Of a DNA stretch of 64,000 nt, positions 6,802 through 15,204 are shown one piece after another. The stretch is from NCBI RefSeq assembly GCF_009683175.1, contig NZ_WKKW01000001.1:806001-870000 (forward strand), written 5' to 3'. This DNA comes from Bifidobacterium asteroides. Lineage in GTDB: Bacteria; Actinomycetota; Actinomycetes; Actinomycetales; Bifidobacteriaceae. Position numbers and translations under genes: made by a program. The notes beneath the pieces were generated by a model. The model worked only from the letters and a program-made list of their open reading frames with translations, was not told the DNA's origin and ran no database searches. The first letter of the stretch is position 1. Each line of letters opens with the position of its first letter.

Positions 6802-9800
6802 TCATGCCCGTATCCGTCTGACCGCCCAGTTGAGTAGTTTTCGCAGCTCCGAAGCGATCAGGACCAGGGAAGCCAGCGCGATGCACTCCAGCCAGGCCTG
6901 GGGCTGGAGGGGGACGGTGCCGAAGGCCTCGCCCAGGAAGGGCACGTAGATCACCAGGAGCTGCAGCAGGATGGAGATGCCGATGGCGCCCCAGAGCCAT
7001 GGGTTGCTGAAGAGCCCCTGGAAGGCCGACTTGCGGGAGGAGCGGGAGGCCAGCGCGTTGAAGAGCTGGGCGAAGACCAGGATGGTGAAGCCCATGGTCC
7101 GCGCCTCCCTGATCTGCGCCTCGTGGCCGATCGCCTGGACGGACCTGTCGGTGAAGAGGCCGCCGCTCAGGTGCATGTCCATGCCGATCAGGGTGACCAG
7201 GGCCATGACCAGGCCTATGTAGATGATGTCAACCCACATGTCCCGGTCGATGACCCGGTCGCTGACGGATCGGGGCGGGCGGTCCATCAGATCGTCGGTC
7301 TGCGGATCCACGCCCATGGCCAGCGCGGGCGCCGCGTCGGTCAGGAGGTTGATCCAGAGCAGCTGGGTGGCCAGCAGCGGCACGGTCACGCCCGCCATGC
7401 CGGGCTGCGATATGCCCAGAAGACCAGCGAAGACCACGCCGCCGAAGACCGTGAAGACCTCGCCCATGTTGGAGCTGAGCAGGTAGCGCAGGAACTTGCG
7501 AATGTTGTCGAAGATGCCCCGGCCCTCTCGCACGGCCTGGACGATGGTGGCGAAATTGTCGTCCGCCAGGATCATCTTGGCCGATTCCTTGGTGACCTCG
7601 GCCCCGGTGATGCCCATGGCCACGCCGATGTCTGCGGTCTTGACAGCAGGGGCATCATTGACGCCGTCGCCGGTCATGGCCACGACCTTGCCCTGGTCCT
7701 GGAGCGATTCGACGATCTTCAGCTTGTGCTCGGGGGCCACGCGGGCGTAGACGGAGACCTTGGAGGTGGTCTCCCGAAGCTGGTCCGAGTCCATGGCATC
7801 CAGCTGCTCGCCAGTGCAGGCCGGCTGTCCGGGCTTGATGATGCCCAGGTCCCCTGCGATTCTGGCTGCAGTAAGCGGATGGTCGCCGGTGATCATGATC
7901 GTTCTGATGCCGGCCTTGTGAGCCTGATCCACCGCATGGCGGACCTCAGTGCGGGGCGGGTCAATGATGCCGACCATGCCCGTCCAGATCAGATTGCTCT
8001 CCAGTCGGGTGCTTTCCTGGATCACCTTGTCGGCAGACAAGCGAATTGCAGGAGCATGCTGAGACTTTTCAGGCAACCGGTCCGTCTGATCCGTCCCGAC
8101 CGTGCTTGACGGCCACTCCCCCGCGTCAGCTTCGGCCAGCGCCGACAGCTCCTGGTCGGATACAGGCCGGAAAGCCTGTCCCAAGGTCCTGTAGGCATCC
8201 GCCGAGAGACTGCTGACCTGAGCAAGTATCCTTTCCCGATCGGCACTGGTCATAGGTCTGACCTGGCCGCCATCGAGAATCCGGTCGCATCGGCCAAGCA
8301 GCACGTCGGGAGCGCCCTTGCAGAAGAGACGTGATTCCCTTTCGTTGTCATCATTCGGGGCAGCCAGAACCGACATGAGCTTGCGCTCGGACGTGAAAGG
8401 AATCTCGGCCAGACGACGGTAGCTATCAGCCTTGGCATCAGCGCCGACTTTACGGGCGGCAACAATCAGCGAAACCTCCGTGGGATCGCCGACGCTCTGC
8501 CAGTGACCCTGCCCGGATCCAGACTGGGCCTGGGAATCAGGTTCGGCCTCGACCGGCTGCCAATGCAGGTCTCCGTCGTTGGCGATGGCCCCGACCATCA
8601 GGGTCTCTTCCACTGCCTCAGCCAGAGATGAACCAATGGTATCTGTCAGTTGTTGATCATCTGACCCACTGGCCTCGAACGGCTGCATGGTTCCCTCCGG
8701 AGCGTACCCGGTGCCAGTGAGCCTGACCTGCCCCGAGGGGACGACCACCCGTTCAACGGTCATTTCATTGCGTGTAAGAGTTCCTGTCTTGTCGGAGCAG
8801 ATGACTGATGCCGATCCCAGGGTCTCCACCGAGCTGAGCTTCTTGACGATGGCATGATGCTTGGCCATGCGCTGCACGCCCAGGGCGAGAACCACAGTCA
8901 GGATGGCCGTCAGCCCCTCCGGCACAGCAGCTACGGCCAGAGATACGGCCATGAGCAGGGAATCAATCAGATCCTGGGTTGTCTGAAAGCCTTCCATCAG
9001 GGCCAAAGCAGCCAAAACCAGGGCGGCAATCAAGCAGACGGCCAGTCCGAGGAGCTTGGAGACGCGGGCCATCTCCTTCTGTAGGGGCGTGGGTTCCTCC
9101 TGGGTATCAGCCAGCATGTCGGCGATCTTCCCGACCTGGGTGTCCATACCAGTAGAGGTGACGATCATGCGCCCGTTCCCCTGGGTCACTGCGGTGCCGT
9201 TGAAGACCATGTTGGTTCTGTCACCCAGAGCCTTGGGCTGGTCAAGCCGACCGGGCCGCTTGCCCACCGGCAGCGACTCGCCGGTCAGCGATGCCTCGGC
9301 CACGCGCAGACCCGCGGCCTGGAACAGTCTTCCGTCGGCGCCGACCGAATCGCCTTCAGCCAGGACTACTACATCACCAGGCACGATCCTGCTGGTCTCC
9401 AGGCTGACCACCCGGCCGCATCGCAGCACCGAGGCGTGCGGGGCCGTCATGCTCGCCAGAGCATCCACAGCCCGCTCGGCCTTAGCCTCCTGAGCGTACC
9501 CCAGGGCGGCATTAAGGATGAGGATGATCATGATGACGATGGCATCAAAGGGCAGGGGCTCCCCGCCTCCTGATGCCGGATGTGAGCGTTCCACCACCCA
9601 GGGCACCAACGAAATGGCCGTGGCTGCCAGAAGCAGATAGACCAAGGGGTCCTTGAACTGTTGAAGGAATTCCCTCCATGCAGGAACGGGAGGCGCTCCA
9701 GCCAGCTCATTAGGACCGAACCTGTCCAGCCGACGCGCCGCCTCGGCCTCATCCAGGCCCCGGTCGGGGTCCACATTCAGAGCAAGGGCAACCTGATCGA

Positions 9801-9933
9801 CACCTACTATAGAAGGGTCCTTGAGGACGGGGCCATTCACTCTGCGCCTCTGCTCATGGCCCTGCCCTGCAGTCGGGATCACGCCGGTATCTGTCGATTT
9901 CTCATGCTTGGGATCGCTGGTCAACCCAGTCAT
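6802..9933 (-). CDS. P2A-type (calcium-like) cation-transporting ATPase
   Basis: A 1043-residue P-type ATPase. Features in order are an N-terminal cation-ATPase domain (DEAEAARRLDRFGPNEL), TM1-2, the actuator motif LTGES, and TM3-4 with PEGLTAILTVVLALG. The phosphorylation loop SDKTGTLTRNEMT has its catalytic Asp near residue 381. The nucleotide-binding domain contains KGAPD, the hinge is MTGDGVNDAPAVK, and a six-helix C-terminal cation-ATPase domain follows. The PEGL motif and the overall architecture match bacterial SERCA/PMCA-like Ca2+ (sometimes Mn2+) exporters of the plasma membrane. The start at 9933 follows AGGAG. Upstream in-frame codons run into the duplicated promoter region and are probably untranslated leader. 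The insertion at about residues 460-510 and the acidic N-terminal tail vary in this family. Ion specificity cannot be read from the sequence with certainty. Confidence 0.93.
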   Translation of the reverse strand: MTGLTSDPKHEKSTDTGVIPTAGQGHEQRRRVNGPVLKDPSIVGVDQVALALNVDPDRGLDEAEAARRLDRFGPNELAGAPPVPAWREFLQQFKDPLVYLLLAATAISLVPWVVERSHPASGGGEPLPFDAIVIMIILILNAALGYAQEAKAERAVDALASMTAPHASVLRCGRVVSLETSRIVPGDVVVLAEGDSVGADGRLFQAAGLRVAEASLTGESLPVGKRPGRLDQPKALGDRTNMVFNGTAVTQGNGRMIVTSTGMDTQVGKIADMLADTQEEPTPLQKEMARVSKLLGLAVCLIAALVLAALALMEGFQTTQDLIDSLLMAVSLAVAAVPEGLTAILTVVLALGVQRMAKHHAIVKKLSSVETLGSASVICSDKTGTLTRNEMTVERVVVPSGQVRLTGTGYAPEGTMQPFEASGSDDQQLTDTIGSSLAEAVEETLMVGAIANDGDLHWQPVEAEPDSQAQSGSGQGHWQSVGDPTEVSLIVAARKVGADAKADSYRRLAEIPFTSERKLMSVLAAPNDDNERESRLFCKGAPDVLLGRCDRILDGGQVRPMTSADRERILAQVSSLSADAYRTLGQAFRPVSDQELSALAEADAGEWPSSTVGTDQTDRLPEKSQHAPAIRLSADKVIQESTRLESNLIWTGMVGIIDPPRTEVRHAVDQAHKAGIRTIMITGDHPLTAARIAGDLGIIKPGQPACTGEQLDAMDSDQLRETTSKVSVYARVAPEHKLKIVESLQDQGKVVAMTGDGVNDAPAVKTADIGVAMGITGAEVTKESAKMILADDNFATIVQAVREGRGIFDNIRKFLRYLLSSNMGEVFTVFGGVVFAGLLGISQPGMAGVTVPLLATQLLWINLLTDAAPALAMGVDPQTDDLMDRPPRSVSDRVIDRDMWVDIIYIGLVMALVTLIGMDMHLSGGLFTDRSVQAIGHEAQIREARTMGFTILVFAQLFNALASRSSRKSAFQGLFSNPWLWGAIGISILLQLLVIYVPFLGEAFGTVPLQPQAWLECIALASLVLIASELRKLLNWAVRRIRA

Positions 9934-9953
9934 GCCACTCTCCTGCTTATGCC

Positions 9954-10088
9954 ACGGAGTAGTCAACGCTTCAGAGGCCCGTTGGAAGAAATCAGAGGCG
10001 GCCAGACCAAAACGCTGCGTGGATGCTTGCCAAGTTGAACCAATAATATACATAAACACGGCCGAAGTCGTCAAGGCCTTTGCTTCAG
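9954..10088. repeat. 135-bp direct repeat, left copy
   Basis: This segment matches 15070-15204 in the same orientation without gaps; I count about 19 mismatches in 135 positions (roughly 86% identity). It contains the promoter and leader of the P-type ATPase gene. The two copies bracket the peptide/ABC-transporter island. Confidence 0.9.
10045..10074 (-). promoter_or_regulatory. Predicted promoter of the P-type ATPase gene
   Basis: Minus strand: -35 TTGACG (10074-10069), an 18-base spacer, -10 TATATT (10050-10045). This predicts a transcript start near 10038 and a leader of about 100 bases. Both hexamers and the spacing are conserved in the second repeat copy. Confidence 0.65.
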
Positions 10089-10166
10089 TATGCATTCTCA
10101 GGCCTGTCTCATGACAGAGACGGTATCTTTGCTGCACTTAACTTGGCAGCGCCCTAGTTGCCGAAT

Positions 10167-10184
10167 CCCCCCCCCCAAAAAAAA
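10167..10184. repeat. Homopolymer tract C10-A8
   Basis: Ten C followed directly by eight A, in the intergenic region at the left edge of the peptide island. Such a tract is prone to slippage and to sequencing error. It lies outside any gene I can support. Confidence 0.9.
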
Positions 10185-10438
10185 TACTAGATCTTCATTA
10201 GAAAAGCTTTAATCAATTTGGGCTCATCTGGCATAAAAACCCTTATCTGCCCTGAGAATCCTATTTAAGACCCTCTTGTGATTATTCGACAGGCTCAGCT
10301 GGCGTTATCTGAGCAGTAAATAGTCTTATAGGCCAACCATGGTAGTTCTTGCCAGCCGTCTGCCCTAACGATCCTTTCAGTGGAGACACCATTGGAAATA
10401 GCACTAAACACGAGAAAGAGAGGAGAGAGACGGACAAA

Positions 10439-10558
10439 ATGCACAACATTATCGATCTGCAGAATAGTAATATCGCCATGAATGATGAAGCCGCTCATCA
10501 TAGCGGCGTCAGCATATTTGCATGCCACGGCGGTGGGCATGATAATATCTGGAGTTGA
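10439..10558 (+). CDS. Class III lanthipeptide-like precursor peptide
   Basis: A 39-residue peptide with ATG at 10439, preceded by a purine-rich GAGAGGAGAGAGA ribosome binding region. The N-terminal leader carries IIDLQ at residues 4-8; class III lanthipeptide leaders have a comparable (I/L)(L/F)(D/E)LQ helix that docks on the LanKC synthetase (labyrinthopeptin ILELQ, RamS LFDLQ). A short polar, acidic segment precedes a core starting at Ser22. That core contains SGVSIFAC, which is Ser-x2-Ser-x3-Cys, the labionin-forming spacing seen in labyrinthopeptin. A GGG-containing tail ending in Trp-Ser follows. The ABC ATPase and FtsX-type permease downstream could provide immunity, and the broken exporter could once have secreted it. 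No LanKC gene is visible within the window. The assignment is from motifs and context; the frame is short enough that chance coding cannot be excluded. Confidence 0.6.
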   Translation: MHNIIDLQNSNIAMNDEAAHHSGVSIFACHGGGHDNIWS

Positions 10559-10756
10559 TGGACCTGCAGCTAATCCACAAAAATATGCCACTGCGATGAC
10601 GCATTCATCAAAATGGCATGGGCTGTCATTTTTGCCCTGATGACGGCAGGGACAACAGTCATGTAAGTCTATGGGCGCCATCCTTGTATGGCATCCATAG
10701 CAATATTCTGATGAAGATTTATAAGTCGCGAGAACGGCGATGATGGGAGAACGGTG

Positions 10757-11458
10757 ATGAGTGGTGCTTCAGTGAGTTCAAATGGATTGACAATGACGGT
10801 GACTCCGAGGAAGGATGATTCGATCACCATCCTCGACCATGTCGACTTCCATGCTGAGCCCGGAAGAATCACGGGGATTGTCGGCCCCTCAGGCAGCGGA
10901 AAGTCCACCTTGCTGTACTGCCTTTCGGGGTTGGAACGTGCGACATCCGGAAGCATCTCCCTTCTAGGGCATGACATCACACATATGCGAGCGTCCGCGC
11001 TCACTCGGTTTCGGCGTCGACATCTGGGATTCGTGTTTCAATCCTACAACCTGATCACGAGCATGACGGTGGAGGAGAACCTCGCGCTGCCATTCACCCT
11101 GCGCGGCCGTCGACTCCCCAAGCAAAAAGCGGATGAGATGTTGCGGTACTTCGGATTGGCAAACGAGAAAAAAAGGAGCGTGACGATGCTCTCAGGCGGA
11201 GAGCAGCAACGTGTCGCGCTTGCACGAGTGCTGCTCTCCGATGCAGATATCATTTTCGCCGACGAGCCGACTGGAGCCTTGGATCAGGAATCTGGCGCCA
11301 AGGTCATGCAGGTGTTCAAAAGCCTGGCTATGGATGCGGGCAGGACCGTAGTAATAGTGACCCACAGTGGAGAGGTAGCCGGACAGTGCGACCAGATCGT
11401 TGAGGTCCGTGATGGCCACGTGCTGAACGCTGATACGGAGAGCGGGGCCCGCATATGA
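10757..11458 (+). CDS. ABC transporter ATP-binding protein, MacB/LolD type
   Basis: A 233-residue nucleotide-binding subunit with Walker A GPSGSGKST near residue 45, the Q-loop in FVFQSYNLI, signature LSGGEQQRVALARVL, Walker B DIIFADEPTGALD and a switch His in VIVTHSG. The EPTGALD and FQSYNL motifs are typical of the MacB/LolD/BceA group that pairs with FtsX-type permeases. The ATG at 10757 follows GGGAG; a GTG three bases earlier is the alternative. The TGA overlaps the permease ATG by four bases. Members of this group expel or detach antimicrobial peptides. Position just after the lanthipeptide-like gene suggests self-immunity, which is inference. Confidence 0.92.
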   Translation: MSGASVSSNGLTMTVTPRKDDSITILDHVDFHAEPGRITGIVGPSGSGKSTLLYCLSGLERATSGSISLLGHDITHMRASALTRFRRRHLGFVFQSYNLITSMTVEENLALPFTLRGRRLPKQKADEMLRYFGLANEKKRSVTMLSGGEQQRVALARVLLSDADIIFADEPTGALDQESGAKVMQVFKSLAMDAGRTVVIVTHSGEVAGQCDQIVEVRDGHVLNADTESGARI

Positions 11459-12885
11459 GGGGCGCACTCTCTGATCTGAAAGCAGCCCCGGCCGTATGGG
11501 CCGGCGTATGGCTGTCACTAATCGTTTCCCAGACCGCTGTGTGCACTATCGTCGCCGCGCGCAGGGCTATTGATGCCGCTTACCACGGACCGGATGCCGG
11601 GTTAGGCGCCAACCTTTCCGGCCCAGCAATGCTGTTCAGCGTGGTCATAGCCGTGTTCGTGATGCTGTGGGTCGTGACCGCCGCTCTGAACCAGCGCAGG
11701 CACCAACTAGCATTGCTGGTCCTTCAAGGCGCCACGCCCTGGCAGCTGCTCTTCGGGAATCTGGCTATCATCATCGTCCTATTCATCTTGGCAGCAGTAG
11801 CGTCATCCCTCCTGACGCCGCTGGCAGCACCATATCTGTTCGACCTCCTGGCCAGAGCATTCGAGCTGAAACTGACGTATCAAGCAACCCAGCTGCTGGC
11901 ATCCATCGGCACTGGGTTGGCCATTGCCGGAGTCGCCGTCCTTGCAGGCACAGTGCTGACCGTGCGCACACTATCCAAGATCAGGCCGATAGAGGCGCTT
12001 CGGCAGTCACAAAACCCGCCGAGACAAGTGAACGCATTCCGTGTTCTGCTAGGCGCATCGTTGCTCGTGGGAGCGATATGCGCGCTCATCATCCCGGGGA
12101 CAGCTACACGCAAGATAGACTCTGGCGAGCTCGCCACGCACATTTCCGGCAGGAATCCCATAGAGTCCAGAGTGACAGGATTCATTGGGTTCTCCATGGG
12201 AGGCATGTTCCTCCTGATCTTCGCATTGGCTGTTCTGGCTCCCTATGTCATGCACTGGTTCACCAAAGGATGGACGCATCTTCTCCCCCTGCCATTCAGC
12301 ACCTGGAAACTCGCTAGGCAGCAGGCCGTTGGGAGGATCCAACGACAGAACGCGACCATCATTCCCATGACGGCCGGCTTGTCGTTGCTCATGACTTTCT
12401 CTGGTGTGTTGCATACGCTGACCGACAGCCTCAAGAATTTCGCCAGTAACGGCCATTCCATGAACGTGAACCCACACATGCTGACGAACCTGATGGCCAT
12501 GCTCGGCCCTGCGCTCATCATCGCTTTGGTGGGCGCAATCTCCGGACTGATGATCACCGCACGAGGGCGACGCCTGGATCTGGCGCTGACATACGTATCC
12601 GGTGCCAGTACCGGACAGTTGCGCATTTTGGGAGCCCTCGATGGTCTCATTTCGATGGTCACCTCGGTGCTGCTCGCCTTCGTCATCACACTGCTCAGCA
12701 CCTGCGGCACCGCCTTCATGCTGCAACGATATCTGGGAAGCGCAAAGATAAGCGTTCAATGGGGATATTGGGCGGTCATCGCACTCCTCGCTATTGTCGT
12801 AGGCGCCCTCGTCACAGGCGTGCAGGCGCTGTGCGCGCGTTCCGAGGATTCTGTGAGGGTCATATCACGTGCAGTCGGTGAGTAA
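11455..12885 (+). CDS. FtsX-family ABC permease
   Basis: A 476-residue integral membrane protein with about eight to ten predicted helices arranged as two FtsX-like repeats. The first, around residues 55-180, ends in the cytoplasmic LRTLSKIRPIEALRQ segment typical of FtsX domains. The second, around 300-470, includes a helical hairpin near TARGRRLDLALTYVSGAS. It starts in the ATGA overlap with the ATPase gene, so the two subunits form one transporter. There is no large extracellular sensing domain like that of BceB. Likely substrates are peptides or lipids at the outer membrane face. Given the preceding small gene, immunity to the cognate peptide is the simplest suggestion. It appears intact. 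Confidence 0.88.
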   Translation: MRGALSDLKAAPAVWAGVWLSLIVSQTAVCTIVAARRAIDAAYHGPDAGLGANLSGPAMLFSVVIAVFVMLWVVTAALNQRRHQLALLVLQGATPWQLLFGNLAIIIVLFILAAVASSLLTPLAAPYLFDLLARAFELKLTYQATQLLASIGTGLAIAGVAVLAGTVLTVRTLSKIRPIEALRQSQNPPRQVNAFRVLLGASLLVGAICALIIPGTATRKIDSGELATHISGRNPIESRVTGFIGFSMGGMFLLIFALAVLAPYVMHWFTKGWTHLLPLPFSTWKLARQQAVGRIQRQNATIIPMTAGLSLLMTFSGVLHTLTDSLKNFASNGHSMNVNPHMLTNLMAMLGPALIIALVGAISGLMITARGRRLDLALTYVSGASTGQLRILGALDGLISMVTSVLLAFVITLLSTCGTAFMLQRYLGSAKISVQWGYWAVIALLAIVVGALVTGVQALCARSEDSVRVISRAVGE

Positions 12886-12907
12886 CCACCCCCAACAAAG
12901 GACGAAA

Positions 12908-14837
12908 ATGTCGCCACACAAGCGGAATAGTAATGAGAAAACCGCATCTTTGATAGACGTGCCCCGCCTTTTGAAATCCATAAGGGTGTTTTATTCACGG
13001 TTAGTCTGCTAAGTATAGCGAGCGCCCTCTTAAATCTGGCTCAGCCACAGCTTGTCAATGTCATTCTTGGACGCGTGCAGCATAACATGCGATCCGCAGT
13101 GCCCCTCTAATAGCGTTGGCAGGAGTGTTTCTGTCCGGCGCAGCAATCACTTCTTTTGACGCTTACCTGCTGTTGAACGATATGAGACGGTCTCTAGTAA
13201 TGCATATTCTGCATTTGCCGTTCAAAGATCTGGACCAGTCGCATACAGGCAACGTAATTTCTATTATTTCATCTGATACAAATGAACTGAAGCGATTGCT
13301 GACCGATAATTGCCAGAAGTGTTTGGCACTTTACTGGTGTTCATAGGCGCGTGTGTGGGAATGGTCATAATCAGTCCCGTCATGTTCGTTATCTCTCTTT
13401 CGACCTGTCTTGTTACTGTCGGTTTACTGGTAGTCTTATCCGGAAAATTACGAGACTGCTCCAGAGGGGCTCAAACGGCCATAGGAGATATGACGTCTGC
13501 AGCCACTGATGCTTTGATGAGTTTGAAAAGGATCAGGGCCTTCAACGCCACGGAGCGTGAGACCAATAAAATCGGCGAGAAGCCAGGCAAGCGTGCACAT
13601 CCGGTCGTCTAATTTCAAAGAAGCAGTCACTGATATGGCCATCAGGAATGGCCTTAATGCAGTTGTGCCTGATGGTTGTATCGGGAATCGGCGCTTTCCA
13701 AGTGGCCAAAGGAGTGATGACTGTTCAGCAACTGGTAACTTCTCTATGTACCTAGAAATGATGCCCACGCCTATGGCGACACTTTCTTCGACATATAGCA
13801 GACTGTTCAGAGCGTTGGGCGCGAACTCCAGCATTCAAGCGATAATGAGAATGCCGACCGAAGATGCGACATCAGCATGAGCAGTATCCAGTAGGGTCCA
13901 AAGGAAGGTCACCAACTCCGATCAGATTGACATCGATCTTGACCATGCTGATATTCCGTATGATGACGCACGGAACAATCGTGGCGGGCTCCAATTGAAT
14001 GAAGCGGGCGTGCATATGAAAGGCGGTGTCGTCTACGCGATAGTCGGACCATCCGAAGCGGGCAAATCAACCATGCTGGCCCTTATAAGGGTATTCTATA
14101 AGCCAAATCATGGCCATGTTCTCTTTAATGGTATTGATCTTTCAACTCTCAGCTCCTCTTATGTACGTTCTCTGATCGGCTATATAGAACACGATGCCCC
14201 CATATATTCCGGTTCTTCCAGAACGAATCTGGCGATGAACAAGAACGGCGTATCCGATGAAGGCTGCTGGAATGCCTTAAATAAGGTGAACCTCACGCCA
14301 AAGTGAGAGACACCTTCGATGGATTGGATACCCCAGCAGGCAACGCGGTGTATTGCTGAGTAGCGGTGAACGCTATCGCTTGGCCCTGGCAAGGCTGTTG
14401 TCCATAAGGCGGCCGATCATGCTGCTTGACGAAACAACATACCATTTAGACGCTAAAAACGAGGAGCTCGTCGCACAAGTCATTCATGCCAATTCCCCGG
14501 AGCAGACAATAGTCATGGCGGCACAGAGAATACAATCAATCGCTTCGTCAAATAGAATCATGGTTTTGGCCAATAGAACTATCAATGGTTTCCTTTGGAA
14601 AATATTGTCTGCCAATTCTACTCTCCTATATGTATTGCTGTTAATAAACTTGATACCAATGTGAATAATTTGGCTATATATAAATATGCGCGGAAAATAC
14701 GATCCACCGGCAGCAAGGTTCTCACCTCAACAAAGGAACAGACGATTCAAACTATCGTCTTGCCCTCTAAAGATATCTTTAATGACATTTATTGGCTGCT
14801 TGGTTTCCAGCATGATATGCAGTCATTACTAGACTGA
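12908..14837 (+). pseudogene. Multiply frameshifted ABC exporter (fused TMD-NBD)
   Basis: The ATG at 12908 has an AAAGGA site. Reading across frames reconstructs one ABC-type exporter of about 600 residues. The first pieces are LLKSIR, then VSLLSIASALLNLAQPQLV, then GVFLSGAAITSFDAYLL and RRSLVMHILHLPFKDLD. Next come GTLLVFIGACVGMVIISPV and a long cytoplasmic loop (GDMTSAATDALMSLKRIRA). The ATPase half has Walker A GPSEAGKST, D-loop region FYKPNHGHVLFNGIDLS, signature LSSGERYRLALARLL and Walker B PIMLLDETTYHLD. At least six frame changes separate the pieces, with breaks near 13000, 13110, 13310, 13600, 13750-13990, 14310 and 14600. No intact product is possible. The C-terminal KLDTNVNN piece lies in a further frame after 14600. 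It was probably the exporter of the adjacent peptide cluster. Confidence 0.85.
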
Positions 14838-15069
14838 CCACGGGATATCTAGCAGTAAAGTTTAGCTGGGAGTACAGCACGTGAACCTTACACAGGGCAC
14901 GCAGGAATAAATCTTGGAATTGCTCATTGTCAAGACATGACCCTCGCTGTTCCGCACAGTCAATCAGCTATCTGTTTTTTGATGACTATATGATCACGAC
15001 GATGTTGATCGCCTACGGGCTTAAGGAGCCGGACCGGGCATCAGACCGCTGGTTAATAGCCTAAACGAG
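14838..15069. other. Degenerate remnant, possible end of a lost biosynthetic gene
   Basis: No intact gene. One plus frame (14859-14984 region) gives TGHAGINLGIAHC, faintly reminiscent of a LanC-like cyclase motif. A second frame gives a continuous peptide ending at the TAA near 15064. Either could be the tail of a deleted synthetase gene, but the resemblance is weak and is recorded only because of the context. Confidence 0.25.
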
Positions 15070-15204
15070 ACGGAGTAGTCAACGCTTCGAGGGCCTGTTG
15101 AAAGAAATCAGAGGCGGCCAAACCAAAACGCTGCGTGGATGTTTACCAAGTTGAACCAAGAATATACATAAATCAGGCTATGCTCGTCAAGTTCTTTGCT
15201 TCAG
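15070..15204. repeat. 135-bp direct repeat, right copy
   Basis: Ungapped counterpart of 9954-10088 with about 19 mismatches. In this copy the frame that reads into the ATPase leader is broken by stops, and no ATPase gene follows on the minus strand. Confidence 0.9.
15161..15190 (-). promoter_or_regulatory. Orphan promoter copy within the right repeat
   Basis: Minus strand TTGACG (15190-15185), 18-base spacer, TATATT (15166-15161), identical hexamers to the ATPase promoter. It points leftward into the decayed island, antisense to the exporter pseudogene, where no minus-strand gene is seen. Confidence 0.5.

Follow-up and report, generated by a model that had tools for sequence, protein, structure and literature searches.

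The window, by which we mean the whole stretch of 64,000 nucleotides that was analysed (G000:C1:806001-870000, from a Bifidobacterium asteroides genome of 2.14 Mb), contained an intact short precursor gene (A) and an intact ABC transporter pair (ATPase, E; permease, F), together with decayed pieces of a LanKC synthetase, an exporter (T) and an S9 peptidase, all lying between two direct repeats (Table 1). The precursor frame extended from ATG 10439 to TGA 10558 and its product was MHNIIDLQNSNIAMNDEAAHHSGVSIFACHGGGHDNIWS (39 aa). As an earlier sequence-only reading had described, IIDLQ occupied residues 4-8, SGVSIFAC residues 22-29, and Cys occurred once; the leader motif (L/I)xLQ was present in the former and the core motif Ser/Thr-x2-Ser/Thr-x(2-5)-Cys in the latter. 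The purine-rich ribosome binding region of that reading was located as GAGGAGAGAG, 10-19 nt 5' of the ATG. The frame has an alternative start at TTG 10349, giving 69 aa; the purine-rich stretch belongs to the ATG. The peptide had no match in Pfam or NCBIfam.

Table 1. Features of the locus, in window coordinates
Feature	Position	Strand	Remarks
Left ~135-bp direct repeat	9954..10088	.	88% identical to 15070-15204; upstream region of P-type ATPase gene
Decayed LanKC C-terminal scrap	10089..10393	+	In-frame stops and a frame change; starts at repeat junction, ends 45 nt before precursor ATG
Class III lanthipeptide precursor gene (A)	10439..10558	+	39 aa, intact; leader MHNIIDLQ..., core with SGVSIFAC
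ABC transporter ATPase (E)	10754..11458	+	234 aa, intact; probable immunity
FtsX-type ABC permease (F)	11455..12885	+	476 aa, intact; Pfam FtsX; probable immunity
Exporter remnant (LanT-like peptide-exporting ABC transporter)	13116..14589	+	Found by tblastn with 532-aa G011 frame
S9 prolyl-oligopeptidase C-terminal remnant	14586..14816	+	Residues 530-606 of 607
Right ~135-bp direct repeat	15070..15204	.	Right end of island

When the C-terminus of the LanKC of G009, another genome of the genus, was compared with the window by tblastn, it matched 10181-10393 (43.7% over 71 aa, E 1.2e-12; E 4.3e-12 in a larger sequence set and 6.7e-13 in the whole-genome search). The best of 1 reversed and 20 shuffled control queries scored 25.0 bits, compared with 57.8 bits for the true query. 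The query itself (L055:5301-5876) was recognised as LanKC by NF038151 (E 1.8e-29, positions 679-832 of 833), and among 10 plasmid records listed as matching it, lanKC was annotated in 7 and no feature was listed in 3. The full-length LanKC of G056 (Bifidobacteriaceae) matched the same place in the window (E 0.026); three other full-length LanKC proteins gave no window match at E 0.05. Among 396 genomes drawn from the order, 13 matched the LanKC C-terminus at E 1e-10 or better, and eight of these lay outside the genus, seven in LanKC-sized frames (859-972 aa), the eighth in a 234-aa frame. The scrap match, the shuffled controls, the G056 LanKC at the same place and the LanKC-sized frames in the order together identify, by similarity, the gene upstream of the peptide as a former LanKC. 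The first piece of the scrap (10089-10130, in another frame) was weak when searched alone (E 2.1); in G011 and G019 it runs on into the remainder without a break (102 aa). Positions 10167-10184 within the scrap read ten C then eight A; G011 and G019 have one extra C at this run, altering the reading frame. The scrap was present in exactly the seven peptide carriers described below and in G009 (8 of 27 genus genomes), the last belonging to a different class III operon. Carriers differed from the window at 0-3 of 299 bases of the scrap, and its stop codons were equal in number in the five genomes with the same stretch aligned; the two genomes aligned over a longer stretch had one additional stop.

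The bifidobacterial origin and the downstream ABC pair suited to immunity, both proposed by the sequence-only reading, were confirmed. The best NCBIfam match of the ATPase was L_ocin_972_ABC, at 196.7 bits, below the cut-off of 254.85; PADLOC gave eight matches to the ATPase, taken as generic ATPase similarity, and none to three other proteins, and one relative (37%) was found in IMG/VR. The permease was identical or one residue different in the seven genomes. In the window the exporter remained as six aligned pieces over five frame changes, and the peptidase as its last 77 residues only. In G011 the permease was followed by a 532-aa exporter frame, related to the G009 exporter, and then by a 607-aa S9 prolyl-oligopeptidase; the exporter start is out of frame there also, with 12886-13116 identical to the window. 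The peptidase was whole only in G011, and the other five carriers shared the remnant. In G056, exporter, LanKC, precursor, S9 peptidase, ATPase and permease stood in one run. Based on the G011 downstream genes and the G056-type run, the locus is read as the remainder of an operon of LanKC, precursor, ATPase, permease, exporter and peptidase. A promoter scan of 9900-10800 gave 2 sites against 1.5 expected, and the only site on the + strand fell inside the peptide gene, so no clear promoter for A-E-F was recognised.

A working cluster is contradicted by these results: full-length LanKC and intact exporter were absent from the window and the leader peptidase was reduced to a remnant, although unclustered host proteases may serve as leader peptidase. 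The precursor adjoins LanKC by descent only, through the scrap ending 45 nt 5' of its ATG. The sequence-only reading had suggested looking for LanKC elsewhere in the genome, and none over the curated NF038151 cut-off was found; besides the window scrap there was only an N-terminal LanKC scrap on contig C12. No LanC-like domain was found in this genome with the Pfam LanC-like model, and within the genus only G009 had one. This model is too insensitive, missing even the window scrap, and NF038151 and the G009 C-terminus query were needed. Kinase-domain matches to NF038151 occurred in 189 of 189 family genomes and were read as ordinary protein kinases; LanKC was accepted only when over the cut-off or matching the lyase or cyclase ends. 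LanKC exceeded the cut-off in 6 of the 189 family genomes and in none of the 27 genomes of this genus (at most four candidates scored per genome); it might occur in further strains beyond those searched. Since LanKC was a scrap only, exporter and peptidase were remnants, and neither a LanC-like domain nor a LanKC over cut-off was found, a dehydrated, ringed product is unlikely here. The peptide probably lacks a ring today, no LanKC over cut-off having been found in any of the 27 genus genomes.

The motif pair alone was weak evidence for a precursor. In 60 simulated windows with the neighbour-base frequencies of the real one, the strict pair occurred 11 times (about 0.18 per window), compared with once among 1730 short frames in the window; a looser pair occurred 134 times in the simulations and once in the window. 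A home-made HMM from 7 Bifidobacteriaceae precursors did not discriminate, placing the peptide third among 1907 frames of the window (E 0.53). The precursor was raised above chance by the LanKC scrap upstream, the exporter and peptidase remnants downstream, and the recurrence of the peptide, 100% identical and always 3' of the same scrap, in 7 of the 27 genus genomes. The homologue search recommended in the sequence-only reading succeeded in related strains, and the assignment of the peptide to class III lanthipeptide precursors held: by descent it truly belongs to them, but it is now orphaned and its pathway is broken. When 189 family genomes were searched, 14 further genomes gave weak peptide matches only (E 0.035 to 0.5), which were treated as noise rather than as distant homologues; the best (L011) lay, by eye, upstream of a metK-like gene. 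A second weak match in G008 (E 0.52) was set aside, and the single match in plasmid records (E 8), inside casB, was noise.

The carriers of the peptide were the window genome (G000), G004, G008, G011, G018, G019 and G020. Among them were Bifidobacterium mellis Bin7N (G019), B. apousia W8102 (G004), B. choladohabitans B14384H11 (G011), B. mizhiense S053-2 (G020) and B. asteroides ESL0199 (G008), species which we take to be bee-gut bifidobacteria. The locus formed an island at 10089-15069 between the two repeat copies, and homology to island-free relatives stopped at or just before 10088. In G022 the site was empty, its flanks joined through a single repeat copy; the left flank was 86% identical to the window up to 10088 and the right flank 92% from 15070. 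In four of the six other carriers (G011, G004, G019, G018) the far part of the P-type ATPase gene differed from the window by 4-16% per stretch. In G008 the farthest flanking stretch alone differed (5%), and G020 was near-identical throughout, flank included, making it uninformative on transfer. Beginning at a point that was strain-specific (between about 7500 and 9000), divergence stayed low across the island (0-1.4%), G011 excepted, whose island differed by up to 3.6% as far as 13.1 kb and by 4.5-14% beyond. The drop was sharp and lay within the P-type ATPase gene (window 7500-9000), with recombination break points varying by strain. The island was far less divergent than the flanking gene in most comparisons and the scrap was shared, suggesting that the cassette moved already broken; apparently recombination carried it from one Bifidobacterium species to another once LanKC had been lost.

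A second class III operon, of the G009 type, was examined in seven genomes, six of the genus (contig C12 of the window genome included) and G052 of another genus. Its order on the 10.5-kb contig of G009 was ATPase, permease, 600-aa exporter, LanKC C-terminal fragment and, directly 3' of that fragment, a precursor-like frame (MNVLNLQ..., core SNHSYFLC); an A-like frame is therewith retained in G009, elsewhere on the contig. N-terminal LanKC pieces of 211, 179, 179, 109 and 33 residues were found in G000, G018, G022, G025 and G052, a C-terminal piece in G009 and none in G026, in the stretches read. Three of the seven loci were contigs of 4.4-4.7 kb ending inside the exporter. Compared with the G009 reference, ATPase (237 aa, 98.7-100%) and permease (481 aa, 96.7-100%) were full length in the six others. 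Searched against plasmid records, the permease of this type had no match at E 1e-20. Junctions just upstream of the ATPase were of six kinds among the seven genomes, G022 and G018 sharing one; in G000 and G052 the junction fell within the precursor core as known from G009, and G052 had pieces matching S9 peptidase upstream of its LanKC piece. With six junction kinds and both E and F full length in 7/7 genomes examined, loss of the synthetase with the ABC pair kept seems to have happened repeatedly. In ATPase and permease, G052 and G009 were separated by 76 synonymous and 20 nonsynonymous changes, some of them possibly older than the losses.

Several details of these loci were also recorded. 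On C12 (L119, 4665 bp) an N-terminal LanKC piece at 388-1023 (NF038151 positions 11-187, E 6.4e-61) was fused to the core of the lost precursor; ATPase and permease, both intact, came next, and then an exporter truncated close to where the contig ends. G009 encodes a 175-aa protein (L055 311-838), its start resembling a signal peptide by eye, immediately 5' of the ABC pair, a place taken in relatives by pieces of LanKC and precursor; it had no Pfam or NCBIfam match and is possibly another secreted peptide replacing the lanthipeptide. In G026 (L158) a 79-codon frame just upstream of the ATPase at 8324 ended, by eye, like the N-terminus of the G011 S9 peptidase; the genes of the second operon would then have stood in the order peptidase-LanKC-precursor-ATPase-permease-exporter. 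Three copies of a transposase-looking frame (by eye) were seen in L127 (1103-1714, 11343-12059 and 15630-16337), two of them flanking the second class III remnant in G018.

The ABC genes of the island are supported as still being under purifying selection by the changes between G011 and the window, both of which share the LanKC scrap: ATPase and permease showed 17 synonymous and 2 nonsynonymous differences (binomial P 1.2e-8, ignoring mutation bias). G004 contributed 5 synonymous and 0 nonsynonymous further changes. Some of the G011 changes could have been imported by recombination from an intact-operon lineage. The peptide had 1 synonymous and 0 nonsynonymous changes across the seven genomes, too few to prove selection. 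From the gene company and the substitution pattern we infer an immunity role for E-F, and resistance is the likeliest function of the remaining genes. E-F may have another job, because permeases 53-55% identical to that of the window occurred in 12 of 27 genus genomes, and the neighbours of two full-length and one partial such loci (L118, L122, L125) included no LanKC and no convincing precursor. Three loose precursor-pattern matches were present in L122, 2 kb or more away. No BLAST similarity was detectable between the window permease and that of the intact G056 cluster.

We consider it fairly probable that the locus belongs to a disarmed producer, that is, a class III operon remnant from which LanKC was lost, which moved in the broken state and whose E-F pair was kept as an immunity cassette. 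By analogy with the family, LanKC would have bound the LxLQ leader of the ancestral precursor and, by phosphorylation, elimination and cyclisation, joined Ser22/Ser25 to Cys29 in a single ring (labionin or lanthionine); the product would have left through exporter T, the S9 peptidase would have trimmed the leader, and E-F would have protected the cell. Of LanKC the last ~100 codons are left, exporter and peptidase have decayed to remnants in the window, and A, E and F have stayed intact. After LanKC loss the cassette would have passed from species to species, with recombination taking place in the P-type ATPase gene beside it, and E-F would have been kept as self-standing immunity against related lanthipeptides from other bacteria. 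A may now yield a peptide that stays unmodified, or may be carried as a passenger ahead of the immunity genes.

Alternatively, the operon may simply be decaying, with precursor, ATPase and permease unbroken so far and shared between strains by hitchhiking. The youth of the island (mostly 0-1.4% divergence), the peptide changes too few to show selection and the three of six genes already broken would agree with such a neutral relic. However, the E-F substitution pattern between scrap-sharing carriers weakens this explanation, and the second operon, with its six kinds of junction at LanKC and full-length E and F throughout, also argues against it; we regard it as unlikely. Still harder to accept is a new task for the unmodified precursor, for example inducing or regulating the adjacent ABC pair as a peptide, or controlling translation of the pair as a leader ORF. 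Although A is intact, has its purine-rich site and stands directly upstream of E in 7/7 carriers, the second operon keeps E-F where A is cut to its tail or gone upstream of E. The RNA fold between peptide and ATPase was not significant (z -0.91) and an Rfam search gave no element there, making such a role improbable. We give very little credence to a pathway that still works, in which a LanKC elsewhere in the genome or from a neighbour modifies the peptide in trans. An intact precursor identical in seven genomes would fit, and unclustered enzymes are known for lanthipeptide proteases, according to the accessible portion of PMC8960859. Yet the genome lacks a LanC-like domain and, besides the window scrap, holds only the N-terminal LanKC piece, none of the 27 genus genomes has a LanKC over cut-off, and the exporter is broken too. 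That the frame is a chance one with two short motifs, as the motif frequency in simulated windows and the HMM rank would allow, was rejected as having next to no probability, since the LanKC scrap, the remnants of exporter and S9 peptidase, and the ABC pair all adjoin it as in a class III operon, although the motif pair is not rare enough alone.

With the disarmed producer as the preferred explanation, the picture shifts from a 'new lanthipeptide' to a disarmed lanthipeptide operon with surviving ABC genes, and the whereabouts of the missing enzyme are shown by the scrap upstream of the peptide. The available part of a survey of bee-gut biosynthetic clusters reports RiPP clusters for Bifidobacterium, assigns class III lanthipeptides to Lactobacillus Firm5 and says that products of classes III and IV are often without antibacterial activity; no mention of the window operon was found there (PMC10673953). 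Classes II and IV are listed for Bifidobacterium longum in the accessible part of PMC4289311, and no description of a class III cluster in bifidobacteria was found in the accessible parts of PMC8535415, PMC4289311 and PMC10673953. A wider picture, which we put forward tentatively and rate below an even chance, is that class III lanthipeptides act as weapons among bifidobacteria and resistance outweighs production, so that two operons would have shed the synthetase, one once and the other several times, and kept an ABC immunity pair of the same kind, with at least one disarmed cassette sweeping across several Bifidobacterium species by recombination. The named strains allow a test of antibacterial roles of class III lanthipeptides among bee-gut bifidobacteria.

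Class III clusters that combine a full-length LanKC with candidate precursors were of four kinds in Bifidobacteriaceae (G077, G056-type, G028 and G100). One of the six LanKC-positive family genomes has an internal stop codon in the gene, and a seventh, G107, has two frames just below the cut-off; all seven LanKC loci hold short leader-motif frames, MKNILDLQ, MKDLLSLQ, MKWILELQ, MNEILQMQ and MGNNVLDFQ among them. G077 has three different precursor frames beside one LanKC. The loci with full-length LanKC and candidate precursor (L128 7905-10941, L130 8869-11536, L132 3031-8324 and L133 7460-12942) resembled the window locus in their N-terminal LxLQ/LxFQ-type leaders and, in several, in Ser-x2-Ser-x(2-5)-Cys cores and an ABC exporter; the G056-type also shared the S9 peptidase and the ATPase-permease pair. 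By contrast, their LanKC is full length (850-917 aa), whereas the window has a scrap only and a core with a single Cys.

The plasmid-like G009-type operon (L055, L119, L127, L158-L161) was related to the window locus through its ATPase (47% over 196 aa), permease (30%) and exporter (36%), and its precursor core SNHSYFLC has the same Ser-x2-Ser-x3-Cys spacing as SGVSIFAC. Its LanKC is broken too, but at other places, and it is a separate operon with its own precursor (MNVLNLQ...). With the flavipeptin type, in which the prolyl oligopeptidase FlaP is encoded in the cluster, the operon of G011 and G056 shares an S9 peptidase; in the window this gene is cut to its C-terminal 77 residues, and the likeness is one of gene content. 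FlaP, an S9 peptidase, removes the leader of a class III lanthipeptide, according to the available part of PMC10885120. The comparison with labyrinthopeptins made in the sequence-only reading stands for the Ser-x2-Ser-x3-Cys spacing only (the labyrinthopeptin letters being taken from that reading); the window peptide has one Cys, hence one possible ring, intact LanKC is absent, and the nearer relatives are the Bifidobacteriaceae class III precursors, such as that of G009. Finally, the locus resembles orphan bacteriocin immunity genes in that immunity would be kept without production, a known idea in the accessible parts of PMC12546727 and PMC10598978, but here the system concerned is a class III lanthipeptide and the synthetase scrap still adjoins.
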